From: a virus
Length of the DNA stretch: 59,198 nt
IMG/VR virus record: IMGVR_UViG_3300028854_000024
Coordinates: 1 to 59,198 of that record
Reading direction: 5' to 3' (one strand)
Made by a program: the position numbers and the translations under genes. Below, piece after piece: positions 5,177-43,088 of the stretch (the stretch's first letter is position 1; every line of letters begins with the position of its first letter). The notes beneath the pieces are model-generated. The model did no database searches. It saw only the letters and a program-made list of their open reading frames with translations, and was not told the origin of the DNA.

Positions 5177-7390
5177 TTGTCTATTAAAGCGCTTCAAAGT
5201 TACACATTCCATTCAAAATATGCCCGTTACAACCCAGAACTTAAGCGTCGAGACACTTGGAACGAGGCTAACGACCGCGTACTTGATATGCATCTTTCAC
5301 GATTACCTCAGATAGAAACAGAACTGAGATGGGCATTTAGCGAAGCTAGAGACAAGGTCGCTTTGGGTAGCCAAAGAGCACTTCAATACGGTGGATCGCC
5401 GATTCTTAAAAAACATGCGAGAATTTTCAACTGTGTCACTTCTTATTGTGATAGGGTGAGGTTTTTTCAAGAAGCGTTTTGGCTTCTTCTATGTGGTTGT
5501 GGTGCTGGATTCTCTGTTCAAAAACATCACGTAGCAAAACTTCCAGATTTTCACACACACGATACAAACAAGACAGAAACAAAAAAATTCCTTATCCAAG
5601 ATTCTATCGAGGGTTGGGCAGATTCTCTTGGCGTTCTTATCTCCACGTTCATGCCTCACTCCGAATACCAAGAGTGGTACGGATTCAACGTCGAATTCGA
5701 TTTTAGTTTAATTCGTCCAAAAGGTTATCCTTTATCTTCTGGAGTAGGTAAAGCTCCCGGACCAGAACCATTAAAAAAAGCTCTTGCTGAAATAAATAAG
5801 CTTTTAGTTCGTTGTGTGTCTGATAAACAGGTTAGACTTCGCCCTATCGATGCGTATGATATAGTGATGCACTCTTCCGACGCTGTTTTGAGTGGTGGTG
5901 TTCGACGTTCAGCATCTTTATGTATGTTTTCTCCAGACGACGAACTCATGGCAAAAGCAAAAACTGGAGATTGGTATTACAGGAATCCTCAACGTGGGCG
6001 TTCCAACAATTCAGCTCTTTTAATCAGAGATAAAACAACAAAAGAAGATTTTTTAAATCTTATAAAATCTGTTAGAGAGTTTGGCGAACCAGGTTTTATT
6101 TGGGCTGATTCTACCGAAATCGTTTTCAATCCTTGTGTCGAGGCTGGGCAGTATCCTGTAGATATTAAAGGACTTAGTGGTTGGCAGGCTTGTAATCTAT
6201 CCATCATCAACGGTAAGAAATGTAAAACAAAAGAAGACTTTTTTAAAGCTGCTAGAGTGGCTTCTATAATAGGAACAGCGCAGGCTTCTTATACAAATTT
6301 CGACTATCTTGGTGATGTTAGCAAAAGAATTATCGAGCGCGAAGCGCTACTTGGTGTTTCTATAACAGGCATGATGGATAGCCCAGATATTTTATTTAAT
6401 CCGGATATTCAAAAAGAAGCTGCACATATAGTTAAAGAAACTAATAAAGAAATAGCTAAAAAAATAGGAATAAATCAATCTGCACGAACCACTTGTCTTA
6501 AACCAGAAGGGACATCGTCATGTATTCTTGGAACTTCGAGTGGTGTTCATGCTCACCACGCTCGTAGGTATATACGACGCGTTCAAGCTAATGAATTAGA
6601 AGCTCCGTACCAATTCTTCGCGTCTAAAAATCCGAGAGCTGTTGAGAAGAGCGTGTGGAGTAAAAACGGAACAGATTCTGTCATAGCATTCTGTATCGAA
6701 ACTTCAGAATACGCCAAAACTAAAAAAGATGTTGGGGCACTTAAACAATTAGAATATGTTAAGCTCACACAAAACAACTGGATAGAAGAAGGCACCAATC
6801 ACGATCTTTGTGTGCAGCCGTTCTTACGTCATAGCGTTTCTAATACCATATCTGTAAAACCAGATGAGTGGGATGTGGTTGTGGATTACATTTACAATAA
6901 TCGAGACTCTTTCGCTGGAATATCTCTACTTTCAAGCACAGGCGATTTAGACTATCCCCAAGCACCTTTCACAGCTATATTAACTCCATCTGAAATTGTA
7001 AAGCTATACGGAGACGGCAGTTTGATGGCATCTGGATTGATTGTTGATGGTCTTGCTGCTTTTGATGATAATCTTTGGTTAGCTTGTGATTATGCAATGG
7101 GTGTTAACACGTTATCTTTACATCCTCCTGTCTTCGACGACGAGGTTTCAAAACTTAAGCTGCATTATCAGCAAGATTGGATCAGACGGGTCAAACAGTT
7201 TGCAGATCATTACTTTGGTGGAGATATTAAACTAACAACGTACTGTCTTAAAAATGTAAATAATTGGAAATATTGGTGTGACCTAAAACGAGAATATGTT
7301 GATGTCGATTACAGCGAACTAATCGAAGATCAAGATAATACAAAAATACAGGAAACAATTTCTTGCGCTGGTGGAGTTTGTGAGATATAA
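5177..7390 (+). CDS. nrdJ: Adenosylcobalamin-dependent ribonucleotide reductase (class II)
   Basis: The 737-residue protein is close in length to the monomeric class II ribonucleoside-triphosphate reductase of Lactobacillus leichmannii (739 residues). It makes deoxynucleotides for replication, using a B12-derived radical and no oxygen. Visible landmarks are the N-terminal FNCVTSYCD region with a redox Cys, GCGAGFSV, the NPCVEAG motif with the likely radical Cys (about residue 320), ACNLS with the second redox Cys (about 338), LKPEGTSS, and the C-terminal CAGGVC pair that is re-reduced by thioredoxin. The start is TTG with AAGGTGG just upstream. The host or its surroundings must supply B12. 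Confidence 0.93.
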   Translation: MSIKALQSYTFHSKYARYNPELKRRDTWNEANDRVLDMHLSRLPQIETELRWAFSEARDKVALGSQRALQYGGSPILKKHARIFNCVTSYCDRVRFFQEAFWLLLCGCGAGFSVQKHHVAKLPDFHTHDTNKTETKKFLIQDSIEGWADSLGVLISTFMPHSEYQEWYGFNVEFDFSLIRPKGYPLSSGVGKAPGPEPLKKALAEINKLLVRCVSDKQVRLRPIDAYDIVMHSSDAVLSGGVRRSASLCMFSPDDELMAKAKTGDWYYRNPQRGRSNNSALLIRDKTTKEDFLNLIKSVREFGEPGFIWADSTEIVFNPCVEAGQYPVDIKGLSGWQACNLSIINGKKCKTKEDFFKAARVASIIGTAQASYTNFDYLGDVSKRIIEREALLGVSITGMMDSPDILFNPDIQKEAAHIVKETNKEIAKKIGINQSARTTCLKPEGTSSCILGTSSGVHAHHARRYIRRVQANELEAPYQFFASKNPRAVEKSVWSKNGTDSVIAFCIETSEYAKTKKDVGALKQLEYVKLTQNNWIEEGTNHDLCVQPFLRHSVSNTISVKPDEWDVVVDYIYNNRDSFAGISLLSSTGDLDYPQAPFTAILTPSEIVKLYGDGSLMASGLIVDGLAAFDDNLWLACDYAMGVNTLSLHPPVFDDEVSKLKLHYQQDWIRRVKQFADHYFGGDIKLTTYCLKNVNNWKYWCDLKREYVDVDYSELIEDQDNTKIQETISCAGGVCEI

Positions 7391-12198: not shown

Positions 12199-12783
12199 AT
12201 GATATACAAATTAAATACCCCAATAACAATTGGTGATTTTACGCAACAGATTACCGTATCTTCATTAAAACTGGTGTCTATGTCGTTAAATTTTCAAGAT
12301 AGTTATACTAAATCTGGGGTTGCAGTGCTTTCAATTTGTCTAGTCGATCCGGTATCTGGATACCCAGTTAACGTCGTGTATACAGATGCTTCTGCACTTT
12401 CATTTTGGCAAGGAATTGAGAACACCATTGGTACATCTCTATTAATCAAAATACAGACAGATGAAAAATTGCCATCCGGGACCATAATAGATACGGTAAC
12501 AACCACTATCAACACGACTTCAAGTGTTGCCACTACAACAACAAATACGCCTGTTACATTAACCGCTACATGCACTTCTGTATTGGGTGGATCGCCGGTT
12601 GGCGCTGTTACATTCTTAGATGGCGGGGAAACATTGGGTACGGTAACACCATCGGGTGGAGTGGCAACTTTGCAAATATCTACACTCGGTGTTGGTTCTC
12701 ACTCCATTATTTCTTCACTTGCGGCAACAGATGGTTTTGCATCATCAACTTCATCACCGATAATAGTGACGATTACACCCTAA
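12199..12783 (+). CDS. Ig-like domain virion protein
   Basis: The 194-residue protein follows the tail-tip gene by two bases. The first 95 residues form an unknown beta-rich domain. Residues about 115-194 match a bacterial Ig-like domain of group 3: PVTLTATC, then PVGAVTFLDGGETLG, then GVGSHSIIS and a final PIIVTITP strand. Such domains decorate phage tails and heads and often bind sugars weakly. It is probably a tail accessory or fibre component. Confidence 0.75.
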   Translation: MIYKLNTPITIGDFTQQITVSSLKLVSMSLNFQDSYTKSGVAVLSICLVDPVSGYPVNVVYTDASALSFWQGIENTIGTSLLIKIQTDEKLPSGTIIDTVTTTINTTSSVATTTTNTPVTLTATCTSVLGGSPVGAVTFLDGGETLGTVTPSGGVATLQISTLGVGSHSIISSLAATDGFASSTSSPIIVTITP

Positions 12784-12837
12784 CACCAACTCGAATATGA
12801 TTGCGTCGACGGGTTGATGTGTGGTTTTTAGGGACTA

Positions 12838-12880
12838 TGGTAACGTGTTTTAAAATATATTCAAAAAAAACACGTTACCA
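12838..12880. terminator. Perfect 14-bp hairpin after tail genes
   Basis: Arms 12838-12851 and 12867-12880 are perfect complements (TGGTAACGTGTTTT and its reverse complement) around an A-rich 15-base loop. It lies 55 bases after the Ig-like gene. No U-run follows the second arm, so it is a likely end of the tail transcript but not a textbook terminator. Confidence 0.55.
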
Positions 12881-12902
12881 CACAATAAAAAGGTGTACTG
12901 TT

Positions 12903-13052
12903 CAATTCAGACCACATTAATCAAATAAAGAACAACACGGTATGATTCTTTATGAGAAGTATTTGAGATTGTGGTCTGAATTGCACGCATACCGAAGAAC
13001 AATCTGTTAATCGGCACGATACCTTGAGTGATTCTTTATTGGTGGTTGTGCC
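12903..13052 (+). ncRNA. Candidate structured RNA with pseudoknot
   Basis: Most of the 311-base gap 12784-13094 can fold. A closing stem pairs 12903-12916 with 12970-12983 (14 perfect pairs). Inside it, 12921-12927 pairs with 12960-12966 and 12928-12932 with 12946-12950. The apical loop base run CGGTATG (12938-12944) is complementary to CATACCG just downstream (12988-12994), giving a pseudoknot. A second hairpin pairs 13013-13017 with 13048-13052. The parts AAGAACAA and GATTCTTTAT occur twice in the same order. It may be a free small RNA or a regulatory leader of the gene at 13095; the strand is assumed from the neighbours. Confidence 0.55.
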
Positions 13053-13094
13053 TGATCCAAAGAAAGTTGTAAAGCCCCCGAGAAGGCTAAAACT

Positions 13095-13298
13095 ATGAAT
13101 GCCGAAGCTAACGCAACTGTAGTTCTAGAAGAAGCAACCACGCAACTCAACATCGTTTCGCAATGTGCCCACTGTTCAAGTGGTATTCAAACAGCAAAAA
13201 CCCACGATGGACACGAAATGTCTGATGCCGCGTTCATCTTCTGCGACACCACCTGCCTTCACGATTACGAACTCGCCAACAACGTTAGTTTCGATTAA
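13095..13298 (+). CDS. Small Cys-rich protein, 67 residues
   Basis: The protein has CAHCSSG near residue 24 and CDTTCLHDYE near residue 50, a CxxC...CxxxC arrangement that suggests a treble-clef or MYM-like zinc finger. An AGAAGG site lies eight bases before the ATG. It lies between the folded leader and an intrinsic terminator, so it is probably a single-gene transcript under its own control. Confidence 0.65.
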   Translation: MNAEANATVVLEEATTQLNIVSQCAHCSSGIQTAKTHDGHEMSDAAFIFCDTTCLHDYELANNVSFD

Positions 13299-13328
13299 CC
13301 CACCTCCTGATGAGGATGGGTTTTTTTT
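13297..13328 (+). terminator. Intrinsic terminator
   Basis: AACCCA-CCTC pairs with GAGG-TGGGTT (one bulged A) around a five-base loop, and eight T residues follow. The stem overlaps the stop codon of the gene at 13095. Confidence 0.9.
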
Positions 13329-14104: not shown

Positions 14105-14115
14105 CCGGGTATACT
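14105..14115 (+). promoter_or_regulatory. CCGGGTATACT promoter motif
   Basis: CCGGGTATACT lies just past the stop of the 13731 gene and about 75 bases before the helicase start. It belongs to the recurring motif family and would drive the replication module. Confidence 0.55.
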
Positions 14116-14149
14116 GAATACGATGTGTACATAATCTCCTGAACTACTT

Positions 14150-14188
14150 TGGGTGGGTGTAAAAAAACATCTACCCATATTTTTATTT
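14150..14188 (+). terminator. Leader hairpin with U-rich tail, attenuator candidate
   Basis: Bases 14150-14160 pair with 14167-14177 (11 pairs including two G-U) around a six-A loop, and TATTTTTATTT follows directly. It lies between the promoter motif at 14105 and the helicase ATG at 14189, so it could stop part of the transcripts before the replication genes. Confidence 0.5.
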
Positions 14189-15784
14189 ATGAAAACTGTT
14201 CTACGCATACAAAATATCAATACTTTCATTGAAGGGGACTTCCCAAGGGTTGAGGTTGATAAGGCACTGTCTTACTACATTCCCGGCTTCTTCATGAGCA
14301 AGCTGTATCGGATATGTCAACGGTGTCCGGGTGGATTTCAGAAGATTAATGCGTGGTCTGGGAAATGCCCGGTTTGTGGTGCGCGTCGAGTCTGGGATGG
14401 AAAAAAACATCTCTTGTTGGGTGGGAAGCTAGGCAAACCGTATTTCCCTACAGGATGCCTCACTGTAGTAGCATCTGTACTGGAACAGAATGGCTTGCAG
14501 GCCGTTTATATCGATGAAAGGTCTCCTTGCCTACGTCCAAGCCCAGATGATGTTTCTAGGGTAAGCCTGATTGATCCGAAGGATGCTACAAAGACACGAA
14601 CCTTGTGGGGTCATCAATCTGAGGCCGTAGGAGCGGTTTTAAAGTATGAACGAGGGGTTATCCAGATTCCAACATCTGGAGGTAAGAGCAGCGTACTTAG
14701 CGCTGTGTGTAAACTCGTTCCAGAGCCAGCCGTAATCCTTATCAATAACAAATCTATCGCCAAACAATTACACGACGAGGTTGAAGCCATGTTGGGTGAA
14801 GATGTAGGTCTCATCATGGGTGGAGTGTTTGAACCAAGACGAGTTACTATTGCAATGACCCAAAGTCTGATAAGTCTCCTTAGTTTGGATAAAAAATCCA
14901 AAAAAGAGAAGATTCCAGCACTCCCAGAAGCAGTGGAATTCGCAAACAGAATCAGAGTCTTGTTGATGGACGAGTGCCATCACGCTTCGAGTGACACTTG
15001 GTATACATTGTGTAATTACATGAAGAATGCATATTATCGAGTGGGTGTGACTGGAACAGCTTTTATGAGAGCTAGCGGAGATGATTTATTGTTGATTGGG
15101 GCTACCGGAGGATTGATCCATGAGATACCAGAGCAGGAATTGATAAGTTTAGGTATAATCGCTAGACCTATCATTCATTGGTATAGAATCCCGGAGCCGA
15201 ATAATATTCCAGAAGATGCGAAGTACCAAGATGTATATAATCTTGGGGTTGTTAACAACTTATATTTAAATCGCTTTGCTGCTATGAAGATTAAAGAAAA
15301 ATACGATAACGGATCGCAAATTCTTGTTTTATTTAGATTCTTAGACCACATTAAAAATATGGAAGCAGAACTAGACGATGGCATAGAATATGAAGTTCTA
15401 ACTGGCGAAGATGATTTAGATAGAAGAGAAATGGTTAAAAGTAGGTTTATCACTGGTAAACTCAAGGTAATTCTTGCTTCCGGTGTTTTTGACGAAGGGG
15501 TATCAATCGAAAATATAGACGATTTGTTCAGGATGGGGCTAGGCAAAGGAGACACTCAAAGTAAGCAACAAGTAGGTAGGTCGCAGCGGCTGAAGAAGGG
15601 GAAACCACAAGAGTGTCACATTCACGACTTCCTTCATACTACTCATCGTTTTTTAACCGAGCACACATTTGCACACTTCAAATTATATAGAGATTTGGGT
15701 TACGAACAGATTTTAGAAGAAACGTCAGCGGGTCTCGTTTGTCTTAAGGAAGACCAACATGGCGTTCAAAGCAGTATTATCTAG
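14189..15784 (+). CDS. SF2 DNA helicase (UvsW-like)
   Basis: The 531-residue protein shows the superfamily 2 motifs in order: Walker A PTSGGKSS, the DECH box in LLMDECHHAS, motif III VGVTGTA, a second RecA lobe with ILVLFRF, and motif VI QQVGRSQRLKK. Near the N-terminus a zinc finger CQRCPGG...CPVCG is inserted. Such helicases remodel forks or unwind recombination intermediates. I use ATG 14189; an in-frame GTG at 14153 would lie inside the leader hairpin. The C-terminus overlaps the J-domain gene by 26 bases. Confidence 0.88.
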   Translation: MKTVLRIQNINTFIEGDFPRVEVDKALSYYIPGFFMSKLYRICQRCPGGFQKINAWSGKCPVCGARRVWDGKKHLLLGGKLGKPYFPTGCLTVVASVLEQNGLQAVYIDERSPCLRPSPDDVSRVSLIDPKDATKTRTLWGHQSEAVGAVLKYERGVIQIPTSGGKSSVLSAVCKLVPEPAVILINNKSIAKQLHDEVEAMLGEDVGLIMGGVFEPRRVTIAMTQSLISLLSLDKKSKKEKIPALPEAVEFANRIRVLLMDECHHASSDTWYTLCNYMKNAYYRVGVTGTAFMRASGDDLLLIGATGGLIHEIPEQELISLGIIARPIIHWYRIPEPNNIPEDAKYQDVYNLGVVNNLYLNRFAAMKIKEKYDNGSQILVLFRFLDHIKNMEAELDDGIEYEVLTGEDDLDRREMVKSRFITGKLKVILASGVFDEGVSIENIDDLFRMGLGKGDTQSKQQVGRSQRLKKGKPQECHIHDFLHTTHRFLTEHTFAHFKLYRDLGYEQILEETSAGLVCLKEDQHGVQSSII

Positions 15785-22593: not shown

Positions 22594-22636
22594 CAACGCT
22601 GTTAACCGTGCTGCAAATGCTTAGTTAACAGCGTTG
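22594..22636. terminator. Perfect 13-bp inverted repeat
   Basis: CAACGCTGTTAAC (22594-22606) and its exact complement (22624-22636) flank a 17-base spacer. It follows the stop of the 22334 gene by eight bases and has no U-run. It may end that transcript, or be an operator for the promoter that starts four bases later. Confidence 0.5.
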
Positions 22637-26744: not shown

Positions 26745-27257
26745 ATGAAAGTGTTTATATTTATTGCTGTTTTTTTAGCTGTTTTAACGTCTCCAGTTGC
26801 TAAATACAGATATAACGGAACTATGGCTCTTCCAGACCTGACGACTACTCCGGGGGCTGTAGACCAAGAAATTGTTGCAGATACATCTGGTACTCAGCAC
26901 ATAATTGACGGGATTGAAAAGAACATATGTGCTAAGGATTTCAGGGCTAAAGCTATAAGAGCCACCATCAAGAATTTTGCAGGTTTGAAGAAGAAGGCGT
27001 GCGCTGAGTATGGAATAGACAAGTGTGATGCTAGTGTAGAAGGGGATCACCTTATTTCAATCGAACTTGGTGGATGTAAAAATTGTTTGACTAATATATG
27101 GCCTCAGCCGATGGATCAAGCCAAGATTAAAGATCATAAAATCGAAGATGTTTTGCCAGACCTTGTTTGCAGTGGGAAGATAACACTCCCAGAAGCACAA
27201 AGTTGTGTGAGTCAAGATTGGGTTGCATGTCAGACTAAGATTGATGGATTGAAGTAG
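26745..27257 (+). CDS. Exported HNH-type nuclease
   Basis: The 170-residue protein begins with a signal peptide (MKVFIFIAVFLAVLTSPVA). The C-terminal half has GDHLISIELGGCKN, NIWPQPMDQAKIKDHK and EDVL, a His-Me finger pattern seen in secreted HNH nucleases. Paired Cys (KKACAEYGIDKC, GGCKNC, QSCVSQDWVAC) may form disulfides outside the cytoplasm. It may break down DNA in the periplasm or block rival phages. Its stop codon shares two bases with the tRNA. Confidence 0.7.
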   Translation: MKVFIFIAVFLAVLTSPVAKYRYNGTMALPDLTTTPGAVDQEIVADTSGTQHIIDGIEKNICAKDFRAKAIRATIKNFAGLKKKACAEYGIDKCDASVEGDHLISIELGGCKNCLTNIWPQPMDQAKIKDHKIEDVLPDLVCSGKITLPEAQSCVSQDWVACQTKIDGLK

Positions 27258-39500: not shown

Positions 39501-40389
39501 ACAAAAACGTAATAATATTCTTGAGAATTCGCAGTTTTATTCGCCGGATATTCAAAGCGACATAGCGAATATCAACCATGCCATCCAACAATCTGGCAAG
39601 TCGGGCAAATATCTGGATATGGGTATGGCTAAAACGAATTTCGGGTTGAAGCTGATAAACGCATATCACGCCTTTTTGGCCGAAAAACAAGAAGCCGATG
39701 AATATTACGATAACTGGTCGGAGAAATCGTTAGTTAAACTCATTGAAGCCGAGAAGATTCTAGCCCGTAGAGATATTAGTATCGCCTTACGCAAATCGTT
39801 CTATAACGATGTGAACTCTAATGATTTGACACGGTGTACAGAACTTCTTGGTGCGTACTTTGATGAATTCATAGATTCCTTTATGACCACCTACAAGGCT
39901 ATCCCTGTAGATGTTCGTAAAACTGGAAATCGTGCATTACTTAAAGGCCTCATCAAAGACGTAATCAAGAACAACGAATTTTCAGCATCTACGATGCAGG
40001 AAGATTTCACAGCGCCGTTGACTGACGACGTAATCAAATCTATGGGCCAAAAAATTGCAACTATTGCAACCGACTTCAGAATGGAAACAAAACCGATGTT
40101 TGTTTTCGATCTGAACAAGTCTGACACTAGTTCTAAATCCATACATAGAGAACCTGTAATTCATAATCTAAGTTTGATCAAGTCTGACAAAGTAAGCAGC
40201 GCAGAACAATGGGTAGAGCGTTTGGTATATATTGAAAACATTATGTATAAGGCTGGATTGTTCCCATACAGAACTAACGCCAATAGGTTTAAGAAGTTTG
40301 TAAAAGATAATGATGAAGTTGCTCTTAAATCGTTCTACAACGAATGCGTAGAGCAACTTAATAAAAGTGTAGTTGACGAGGGGTTATAA
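36574..40389 (+). CDS. Giant head-module protein, 1271 residues
   Basis: Not recognised as a family. Residues 40-180 are Pro/Ala/Gln-rich linker. Around 205-270 lies a small beta-barrel-like part (HGDDVSFQGYHP, FTANGTVVAKN, TVTVKKPNGD), and a second similar one follows near 325-390. The rest is mostly helical and charged, probably coiled coil. I chose ATG 36574 for GGAGTG upstream. It is encoded directly before the portal (one-base overlap), so it may be packed in the head, ejected with DNA or act as a scaffold. Confidence 0.6.
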   Translation: MFKELDDYLGKSEPQLFEDLIVKGMAPFGKPKLPNIKGNQAAANAAPGAGAPGAQSGEVTKLILNGGAVPVIVPTINGPQEQQMAIENVTDAPFSTPSPIKPTLTFNKPNEDKKTSPQPQSSATPGPNSPAPTTSSPESTVNEQSAAASKPDGAKARPMVSTQPIRDKKDGQKLAQLDPTKSASIEYNHTPKSKWYEDKLQHGDDVSFQGYHPDPTIGLGPNGKGFTANGTVVAKNPEKKTVTVKKPNGDLVEFFYGDINHYERPDETGKVNKYKFSEGVHVPSVGAPTQEAQKIIPVDQQMQMKADQMKHRQNKLQLLAQHLKPADWIGYYAPDVKTGEYQMHYGHVVESAPPTPTVAGKDGKQAKAQGPNPNQKILVWDGEKSIPVPMGMVETFAREHPIHGELEHFGYDAKKGGMSKLDYAMGAEPPVKPSEYAKLPEDEQAVEEKPLKPDQIHPDIEPLEQFEEQKKEETAPEQPDNLDQYAHLKPEHFDSATMALDKINNYMKSNSDVPFKVLKARHDLHVGNNIDSASKIIHQFVDNNGAVDSIAPPKTMQDFEQLVGAKVSDPNFLTVAEQKLASDKPASEYLDRMQTNTIKTLQWLATKHGFKGLSDRLGKVDASKDNRELLDVYKAFLQRNVDLPVASAGKPLPPPFDIHTPTDEHIDMANHLEELRNHLQDKKLLTPSYEQRADTLAQHLETDPDSKWVNKTFNQMHRFANDTGVDDPMFQFDTLKEQYEKAGEIEDPEKRTEAQRVIEGVQSMSLDPAKAVKKLGKLMEESGIKVELPESEEEMPSKTAYAKLQSVKNGVAMHKQTKVLQNNIDQLGKEVDKYQEEKASVPSEEGTKGLQVPTSPAASGPATKDKALYFKVRDLRNTIVGAEKNLQKFYAGGGTSSEYIQDPAIKAMKHALKSAIDDYNLQGKKLADVDGKEFEPYVSKIEHPVDEQQVKAKEEHNKTVQDGVNHMADVAVKRFQQKRNNILENSQFYSPDIQSDIANINHAIQQSGKSGKYLDMGMAKTNFGLKLINAYHAFLAEKQEADEYYDNWSEKSLVKLIEAEKILARRDISIALRKSFYNDVNSNDLTRCTELLGAYFDEFIDSFMTTYKAIPVDVRKTGNRALLKGLIKDVIKNNEFSASTMQEDFTAPLTDDVIKSMGQKIATIATDFRMETKPMFVFDLNKSDTSSKSIHREPVIHNLSLIKSDKVSSAEQWVERLVYIENIMYKAGLFPYRTNANRFKKFVKDNDEVALKSFYNECVEQLNKSVVDEGL

Positions 40390-43088
40390 TGGGATTTCGT
40401 GAAGCTATCGCCGGTTGGAGACAAGGACTGAATGGGAAGTCTCTCGACCAACAGGTTACTGAAAAAGTGAATGCCGAGCTAACTCAGCGTTCTAGCGAAT
40501 TGGGTGGTCTCGCGCCGAGTGCAATATCTCCTCGTTCTATGTTGTTCGATCCTTTGTCTTTGATTGGTCAAACCCAGTATAAAGAAAGATATTCCAGCTT
40601 AACGTATGATGTTTTGGCTGCTATGTCGGAAAAGACAGAGCAGGTTAACGCCATAATAAATACTCGTATAGCGCAAATTTGTAGCTTCGCTCAACCTGCG
40701 AGATGGAAAAAGAATTCACTCGGATTCCAAATTCGTTTTAAAGATGCTAACAGGAAACCAACCAAGGAAGAAAGAGGACGTCTCGATCTGCTAGAAGATA
40801 TTTTTTACCAAACTGGTTATACAGATAGATATCGTTCTGGCGAAAGACGTCCCAATTTCGCTGAGTTTTTGAAGCGTTTTGTTCGTGATTCACTTATTTA
40901 CGACCAAGCATGTCATCCGGCTAATACTAGGATTGAAATGTTTGGAGCGTTTATAAACATCCAAGACGTTAAGGTCGGCCATCAAGTTTTTTCCCATAAT
41001 GGAGAATTAGCTAAGGTAGAACAAATTTATTCTCGCAAATATTCTGGGAATCTTTACTCTATAAAATCTAGAGGTCAGAAGATTACGGCTACAGAAGGTC
41101 ACCCTCTTCTTGTTCTTAAAGATAAGTGGGCTTATCTTGGAACTCGTCGTAAGCCATTCGTCTCAGAATGGTTAGAGGCTAAGAATATTTCTTCAGGAAT
41201 GTATTTAACCTACCCCCGCATAAAACTGCCTGAATCAGATGTTGAAGCTGTATTTGGAGATAAAACTCATCATATTGATAGTGAATTTGGGAGATTCTTA
41301 GGTCTCTACGTGGCGGAAGGGAATCAACAAAATGGAAGTGTGAGGTTGACTTTTCATTCTGATGAAACAGAATTGGCTGATTTTACTCTAAAATTTGCTG
41401 AAAAAATAGGATTAAAATCTCACGTCGATCCAGTTGAAGGAAGAAACGCCATAACCGTATTTATTAATTCTAACGGTAGCGGTTTTGGAGATTGGTTAGA
41501 AGACTTATGCGGAAAAGGTTCAGAAAACAAGATGGTTCCTTTATCCATACTGCTGTCTTCTAGAAAAGTTAGAAGGGCTTTTATTGGCGGCTATTTAAGC
41601 GGGGATGGTACGATATATAAAACAAAAGCTAAGATAAACACAACATCCAGACAATTGTTTGTTGGCTTACGTCATCTACTTAGCGCCGAGGGAATATATT
41701 TAGCAGAATCTGAACTGAAGGTTAATAGATATGGTGTTCCGTGTTTAGACCAGTACAGAGGAAATATTAGTGGTAAAGAATATAGAGAATTGGCTAGAGA
41801 AAACGGATTAGAAGTTGCCGAACCAACCAAAGAACGCTCGGCCTATTTGGTAGACGACGAATATTTCTATATTCGAGTAAATGAAGTTAAATGTTCGCAA
41901 GTTGAAGATTTGGACGTTTACAACTTTGAAGTTGAGAAAACTCATAGTTATTTAGCTAATGGATGTATCAGCCATAACTGTTTTGAAATCGTCCCTGCCA
42001 AGAATGGAAAACCGTGTGAGTTCTGGGCTGTAGACGCATCTACAATTCGCGTAGCTCAACCTCGTATGCAGAGCGTGGAAGGTTTGGATGATGGTAGAGA
42101 CCTCATCAAATACGTGCAGATTTACAACAATGTTGTTCGTCATACCTATACGTACCGCGAATTGGCGTTCTGCATTAGAAATGTTCGCAACTCCATCAAG
42201 TTGAATGGTTATGGATATAGTGAACTAGAGATGCTTATCAATATGGTTACGAGCATCCTATTTGCCCAAGAATATAATCGCAGGTTCTTCTCGAATGGAA
42301 GTATGATTAACGGACTCTTAAACATAAAAGGTGCCAATGTTCCACAAGAGATGCTTGAATCTTTTCGTAGACAGTGGCACGCTCTCGCTTCAAATGTTAC
42401 GAACGCACATAAAATCCCTGTTTTGACAAGCAAGGATGGCATCGAGTTTATCAACCTACATTCCAATAATAGGGATATGGAGTACAATTCTTGGATTGAA
42501 TACCTCGTAAAGATGGTTACAGCTGTTTATTTGATTGATCCAGCCGAAATCAACTTTGATTATCGCGGTGCATCTGAGTCTGCTCCATTGTTTGAAACAT
42601 CTCCTGAGGCGAAATTAAAACATTCTAGGGATAAAGGATTACGAAACCTTCTCAACTTCATAGAAGAACAGATGAATTACCACATCCTCCATCAAATTGA
42701 CAGAAATTTGTATTTTGAATTCACTGGCATTGATATGAAAGATGAGCAGGAGATGGTTAATATCAGAGCGTCTGAAGTACAAGCTTATAAGACTTTAGAT
42801 GAGACTCGTGAGGAGGCTGGATTAGAACCGTACGATGACGAAGAAATTGGGAACCTAATACTTAACCCTGTTGTGGTTAACTACAAACTACAGCAACAAG
42901 CGCAGCAACAACAAGCCCAACAAATGGAAGCTCAAGCTGGACAAGGTGGGGAACAAGGACAGCCAGACCCCAATAACCCCGGAGACCCGAACGAGTTTGT
43001 ACAAGGTGGAGCTTCGTCTCATCCAAGCCTCCAAGTTGGTAAGGCTCCAGAAGGGCAACCACCAGCTAGGCAAGGAAAAGCAAAATGA
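40389..43088 (+). CDS. Portal protein interrupted by an intein
   Basis: The full reading has 899 residues. After removal of a 356-residue intein (residues 175-530) the portal has 543 residues. Portal features are in the flanks: VNAIINTRIAQICSFA in the N-part, and RRFFSNGSMINGLLNI, DPAEINFDYRGASES and LEEQMNYH-like helices in the C-part. The C-terminus is Gln/Pro-rich. The portal forms the ring through which DNA enters and leaves. The gene follows the 1271-residue protein with one shared base and precedes a small zinc protein with a four-base overlap. Confidence 0.9.
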   Translation: MGFREAIAGWRQGLNGKSLDQQVTEKVNAELTQRSSELGGLAPSAISPRSMLFDPLSLIGQTQYKERYSSLTYDVLAAMSEKTEQVNAIINTRIAQICSFAQPARWKKNSLGFQIRFKDANRKPTKEERGRLDLLEDIFYQTGYTDRYRSGERRPNFAEFLKRFVRDSLIYDQACHPANTRIEMFGAFINIQDVKVGHQVFSHNGELAKVEQIYSRKYSGNLYSIKSRGQKITATEGHPLLVLKDKWAYLGTRRKPFVSEWLEAKNISSGMYLTYPRIKLPESDVEAVFGDKTHHIDSEFGRFLGLYVAEGNQQNGSVRLTFHSDETELADFTLKFAEKIGLKSHVDPVEGRNAITVFINSNGSGFGDWLEDLCGKGSENKMVPLSILLSSRKVRRAFIGGYLSGDGTIYKTKAKINTTSRQLFVGLRHLLSAEGIYLAESELKVNRYGVPCLDQYRGNISGKEYRELARENGLEVAEPTKERSAYLVDDEYFYIRVNEVKCSQVEDLDVYNFEVEKTHSYLANGCISHNCFEIVPAKNGKPCEFWAVDASTIRVAQPRMQSVEGLDDGRDLIKYVQIYNNVVRHTYTYRELAFCIRNVRNSIKLNGYGYSELEMLINMVTSILFAQEYNRRFFSNGSMINGLLNIKGANVPQEMLESFRRQWHALASNVTNAHKIPVLTSKDGIEFINLHSNNRDMEYNSWIEYLVKMVTAVYLIDPAEINFDYRGASESAPLFETSPEAKLKHSRDKGLRNLLNFIEEQMNYHILHQIDRNLYFEFTGIDMKDEQEMVNIRASEVQAYKTLDETREEAGLEPYDDEEIGNLILNPVVVNYKLQQQAQQQQAQQMEAQAGQGGEQGQPDPNNPGDPNEFVQGGASSHPSLQVGKAPEGQPPARQGKAK
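40911..41978 (+). other. Intein with LAGLIDADG endonuclease in the portal gene
   Basis: The element starts at Cys175 (CHPANTRIEMF, block A), has block B TATEGHPLLVL, two LAGLIDADG helices FLGLYVAEGN and FIGGYLSGDGT, block F VYNFEVEKTHSYLANG and ends SHN before Cys531 (block G). All splicing residues are present: Cys1, block B His, terminal His-Asn and +1 Cys. It should splice itself out and may also spread as a homing element. Confidence 0.93.

Follow-up and report, generated by a model that had tools for sequence, protein, structure and literature searches.

A structured intergenic element, tentatively a leader or RNA-processing hairpin, ahead of a single-gene unit in a putatively SPO1-like phage

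Which role, if any, is played by the 311 bases at positions 12784-13094 of an uncultivated phage genome? This gap follows a tail-type gene with a terminator and precedes a 67-codon gene that has a terminator of its own. It lies in a virus record of 59,198 bases, the whole of which was analysed and is called the window here. An earlier note had read the gap as one compact, pseudoknotted RNA fold in an otherwise packed genome, possibly a new small RNA or a leader switch. The gap proved exact to the base; the genome is less tightly packed than supposed, as a crude ORF map, from which short ORFs were left out, contains 22 other gaps of at least 80 bases.

The phage was placed by comparison of its proteins. 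The terminase (39% identity) and the major capsid protein (43-45% identity) are closest to those of SPO1-type phages of Herelleviridae, and on these sequences the phage would be distantly SPO1-like. One tail protein shares 27% identity with a protein of Tunturi_4, a phage of Acidobacteriota. The species of the window is represented by a second contig (G001, 88,968 bases), which matches window positions 14148-59198 at ∼99.9% and extends another 44 kb beyond the match; it ends at window position 14148 and hence lacks the intergenic element. The gap sits between tail-type genes and the helicase operon. In SPO1, tail genes are likewise followed by lysis and then helicase genes, so that the gene order of the window is credible across the gap. 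The following was observed elsewhere in the window. An adenosylcobalamin-type ribonucleotide reductase gene (5177-7390) is closest to genes of Rhizobium and Pseudaeromonas phages (48-49% identity), an affinity differing from that of the SPO1-like structural genes. A portal-like protein (40389-43088) reads as intein-bearing, with an internal HEN-like stretch and C-terminal HN/C residues, its translation being judged by eye. The sole match in a tRNA/tmRNA search was a tRNA-Ser at 27256.

On the + strand, the gap region opens with a hairpin and a directly visible T-run, GGTTTTTAGG (12783-12829, −14.3 kcal/mol), which is probably the intrinsic terminator of the upstream tail-type operon. It is followed by a perfect 14-bp inverted repeat, TGGTAACGTGTTTT/AAAACACGTTACCA, with a 15-nt loop (12838-12880, z −5.3), assigned to neither strand and with no T-run behind it. 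At the other end, the 67-codon ORF (13095-13298, + strand) carries AGAAGG 8 nt before its ATG. Its profile matches are weak and zinc-finger-like (DUF7445, zf-FCS), all under the curated cut-offs, and no relative of it was found in phage records. A U-tailed hairpin with a run of T behind it (13297-13328, + strand, −13.1 kcal/mol) is predicted to be its intrinsic terminator, in agreement with the earlier description of a single-gene unit.

The core of the element is a perfect 14-pair stem, P1, with its arms at 12903-12916 and 12970-12983 exactly as first described; the repeat search lists it as 17 nt at 94%. None of 500 shuffles of the gap contained a perfect 14-base inverted repeat. The stretch 12900-12986 folds at −28.9 kcal/mol (z −5.8), and for 12890-12996 the z-score is −6.4 on one strand and −6.1 on the other. 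Over ∼103 kb, six perfect inverted repeats of at least 13 bases were observed against a mean of 0.15 in random sequence. In five of the six, 7-17 bases separate the arms, which resembles a terminator or simple hairpin; the repeat at 12903-12983 is the only one with a spacer above 17, namely 53 bases with internal pairing. The 14-pair stem is thus far beyond chance. The strongest inverted repeat in the genome is a perfect 19-bp one with a 10-base loop between genes at 2044-2091; another intergenic repeat, a perfect 13-bp one at 22594-22636, has no T-run behind it. With the intrinsic terminators of the same phage, P1 shares a perfect inverted repeat in a gap between genes; it differs in its structured 53-nt spacer, in the lack of a T-run and in preceding a gene. 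A terminator reading of P1 itself was rejected: CACGCATACCG follows instead of a direct T-run, and the site is absent from the terminator scan.

A second hairpin after the main one, also seen earlier, was confirmed at 13010-13056 (z −3.1 on the + strand), with −16.7 kcal/mol on the + strand against −11.8 kcal/mol on the − strand. These results support a real structured intergenic element ahead of a single-gene unit. By prediction, the main hairpin is as good a fold on the − strand as on the + strand, which leaves its RNA nature a candidate reading and a role at the DNA level equally compatible. Perfect Watson-Crick arms, the adjoining perfect repeat at 12838-12880 and the words GGTAT and ATACC, present in both orientations, would also fit an inverted repeat that acts only as DNA, by binding a protein or forming a cruciform, or else a relic of a small mobile element that likewise has no function as RNA. 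We consider this rather unlikely, given that neither this genome nor the searched collections yielded another copy, no target-site duplication was seen and the second hairpin leans to the + strand.

Inside P1, the two inner stems of the earlier description are present in the minimum-energy fold, P2 at 12921-12927/12960-12966 and P3 at 12928-12934/12943-12950 (+ strand); taken alone, the inner part (12917-12969) reaches z −1.2, no better than chance. Outside P1, the minimum-energy folds pair GGTGT at 12892-12896 with ATACC at 12989-12993. This nested helix, P0, lengthens the closing stem to 22 predicted pairs, in runs of 5, 3 and 14.

The apical loop carries CGGTATG (12938-12944), which is perfectly complementary to CATACCG (12988-12994). 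The seven-base match is therefore exact as noted before, and only mildly unusual. Its probability in shuffles was 0.0065 when the search was confined to the 21 nt behind the stem, rising to 0.034 for 111 nt of downstream sequence and to 0.065 when both flanks were included. With the same geometry applied throughout the window, 0.64% of placements contained such a match; the match itself had been selected after the fact. Where the earlier note had seen one compact pseudoknotted fold, it had missed the nested partner GGTGT. The CATACC strand thus has two mutually exclusive partners, this GGTGT and the loop. As a free duplex, the pseudoknot helix is computed at −8.3 kcal/mol, before any pseudoknot penalty. 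Freeing both of its strands would cost 5.5-7.1 kcal/mol, again before the penalty, if the transcript includes 12892-12896, and ∼2 kcal/mol if it starts at 12897 or later. The linker between the closing stem and the CATACCG strand is 1-4 nt, which would force the inner hairpin into a sharp turn back along the closing stem. A pseudoknot is possible in these models, but the evidence does not favour it.

Repeated words were found as first reported. AAGAACAA occurs at 12928 and 12995, and TGATTCTTTAT at 12943 and 13029. Such collinear direct repeats of 8 and 11 bases, in the same order, appeared in none of 1000 shuffles; the 11-base repeat alone appeared in 1.6%. With both repeats in the same order in none of the shuffles, a partial duplication is plausible. 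The words give no genome-wide signal. In addition, 12924-12932 is fully complementary to 13032-13040 over 9 bp. Each copy of TGATTCTTTAT is preceded by A or G and opens a short frame starting M/V-I-L-Y, at 12942-13010 (22 codons) and 13028-13072 (14 codons). These were not accepted as leader peptides; neither has a ribosome-binding site.

The two partners of one 3′ strand, the additional 9-bp complementarity, the collinear repeats and the position ahead of a gene could together describe a leader switch. CATACCG would swap between the GGTGT extension and the pseudoknot with the loop, the repeated AAGAACAA and TTCTTTAT words would allow a further exchange of partners, and the chosen form would control the small gene. 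That a switch of this kind operates here is unlikely, considering the modest statistics of a match chosen afterwards, the sharp fold-back imposed by the linker and the empty searches for relatives. Neither a terminator nor an arm sequestering the ribosome-binding site is visibly under its control in the predicted folds. Distinctly improbable, in our view, is a new riboswitch-like class of phage leader, in which CATACC exchanges nested stem and pseudoknot within a partly duplicated module and controls a small zinc-finger protein at the border from late to replication genes. If a switch were true, it would represent an undescribed class of phage RNA that can adopt either of two incompatible folds, and this in a lineage of which very few relatives have been sequenced.

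Relatives were sought at several levels. Among the 4227 families of Rfam 15, none matched the gap at the gathering cut-off; relaxing the threshold to E = 10 brought up eukaryotic models alone (microRNA, snoRNA and lncRNA), far under cut-off. DNA searches of phages and plasmids gave no relative with the element, and a 27-base plasmid match at E=1 was attributed to chance. A motif-pattern search of viral contigs gave only unrelated stretches among the matches listed; the only pair there with equal spacing (L005/L011, 17.5 bits) falls within a coding gene, and its stems are mismatched. Searches with the neighbouring proteins (67-codon ORF, large tail protein, helicase, terminase and major capsid) led to no genome with the element, reaching only same-species contigs that do not cover the gap and phages at ∼35-55% protein identity. 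On the latter phages, a single-sequence covariance model, which is weak for diverged relatives, also gave no match. The STAXI motif (RF01728) consists of a repeated, pseudoknotted unit and has been proposed to lie near genes whose products handle DNA (PMC2864571). The element likewise has a repeated unit with a candidate pseudoknot. It differs in that the gap gives no match to the Rfam model of STAXI and that its units, of 26 and 44 nt, share only short words.

Compact, structured and flanked by a terminator and a gene, the element might also be a separate small regulatory RNA that ends before the zinc-finger gene and targets other transcripts or a host protein. This is quite improbable: the structure is not separated from the ORF by a terminator, no promoter was recognised, and neither an Rfam match nor a second genome with the element was found.

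Candidate promoters were examined across the phage. The word CCGGGTATA has 10 exact copies in ∼103 kb against ∼0.8 expected (both strands, equal base frequencies). Most copies stand 17-46 bases ahead of a potential start codon, and AT or T often comes next. In the window the word is located at 290 (−), 2915 (−), 4432 (+) and 14105-14113, the remainder being in G001 or downstream. It is probably a promoter element of the phage that lacks a conserved −35 box. It is absent from the gap (12784-13094); in the part of the gap that lies downstream of 12801, nothing promoter-like was recognised either. Within the loop, CGGTATGAT resembles CCGGGTATA; with mismatches at three of nine positions this can be accounted for by chance, and a promoter there was rejected. 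In front of the helicase, CCGGGTATA at 14105 is followed by a hairpin that resembles a terminator and has a T-run (14150-14182); it stops immediately short of the start codon (ATG at 14189) and is possibly an attenuator in the helicase leader.

A pair of neighbouring stem-loops, with two intrinsic terminators downstream, also recalls a put-like antitermination RNA, by which polymerase would pass the terminators at 13297-13328 and 14150-14182 toward the helicase operon. A put antiterminator has two stems, is encoded immediately behind an early promoter and is homologous to putL/putR. HK022 putRNA is ∼70 nt and has two stem-loops (PMC9378689), an architecture shared by the element, which would likewise place two neighbouring stem-loops in a phage leader. 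The likeness holds by general description; the element is ∼170 nt long and has no known early promoter directly upstream. Moreover, the helicase has its own CCGGGTATA at 14105, and read-through would therefore be unneeded. Antitermination is accordingly very improbable here.

Our preferred reading, which we hold tentatively, is that a hairpin in the untranslated leader acts in cis on the 67-codon zinc-finger-like gene, as a leader or RNA-processing element; such a plain hairpin is more likely than a knotted RNA switch. It is favoured by the excess of P1 over chance, by the 22-pair nested stem, by the second hairpin leaning to the + strand and by the gene directly downstream with its own terminator and with a ribosome-binding site of which AGAA is predicted unpaired and GG paired; the main repeat is also the only long-spacer member among the intergenic inverted repeats. 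The strand symmetry of the main hairpin, the gap devoid of a promoter or CCGGGTATA, the lack of relatives in the searches and a surplus of repeated words that a leader hairpin leaves unexplained argue against it. We infer transcription of the + strand, cutting or protection of the RNA and the downstream ORF as the client.

If 12892-12993 is contained in the transcript, this stretch would form one long, slightly irregular hairpin, with 22 closing pairs followed by weaker inner stems. The second hairpin would come next, reaching up to the ribosome-binding site. Acting at the border between tail genes and replication genes, the long hairpin would most likely determine where the small mRNA begins and how stable it is, either as a site for RNase III, a nuclease specific for double strands, or as a protective 5′ hairpin. 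RNase III sites are marked by a nearly uninterrupted duplex of some 20 base pairs or more within a transcript and by cleavage that leaves staggered ends; a transcript of this stretch would, by prediction, contain 22 closing pairs, in runs of 5, 3 and 14. As in the R1.1-type hairpins of T7, the duplex is intergenic and irregular, spans about two helical turns and lies among genes of one strand. It differs from them in having a larger inner part, and processing is a prediction here. In E. coli, RNase III cuts 5′ leaders, between genes, and phage T7 hairpins such as R1.1 (PMC8708148). If the element is indeed a leader hairpin, it would be one more example of large phages separating and stabilising the messages of neighbouring gene blocks.
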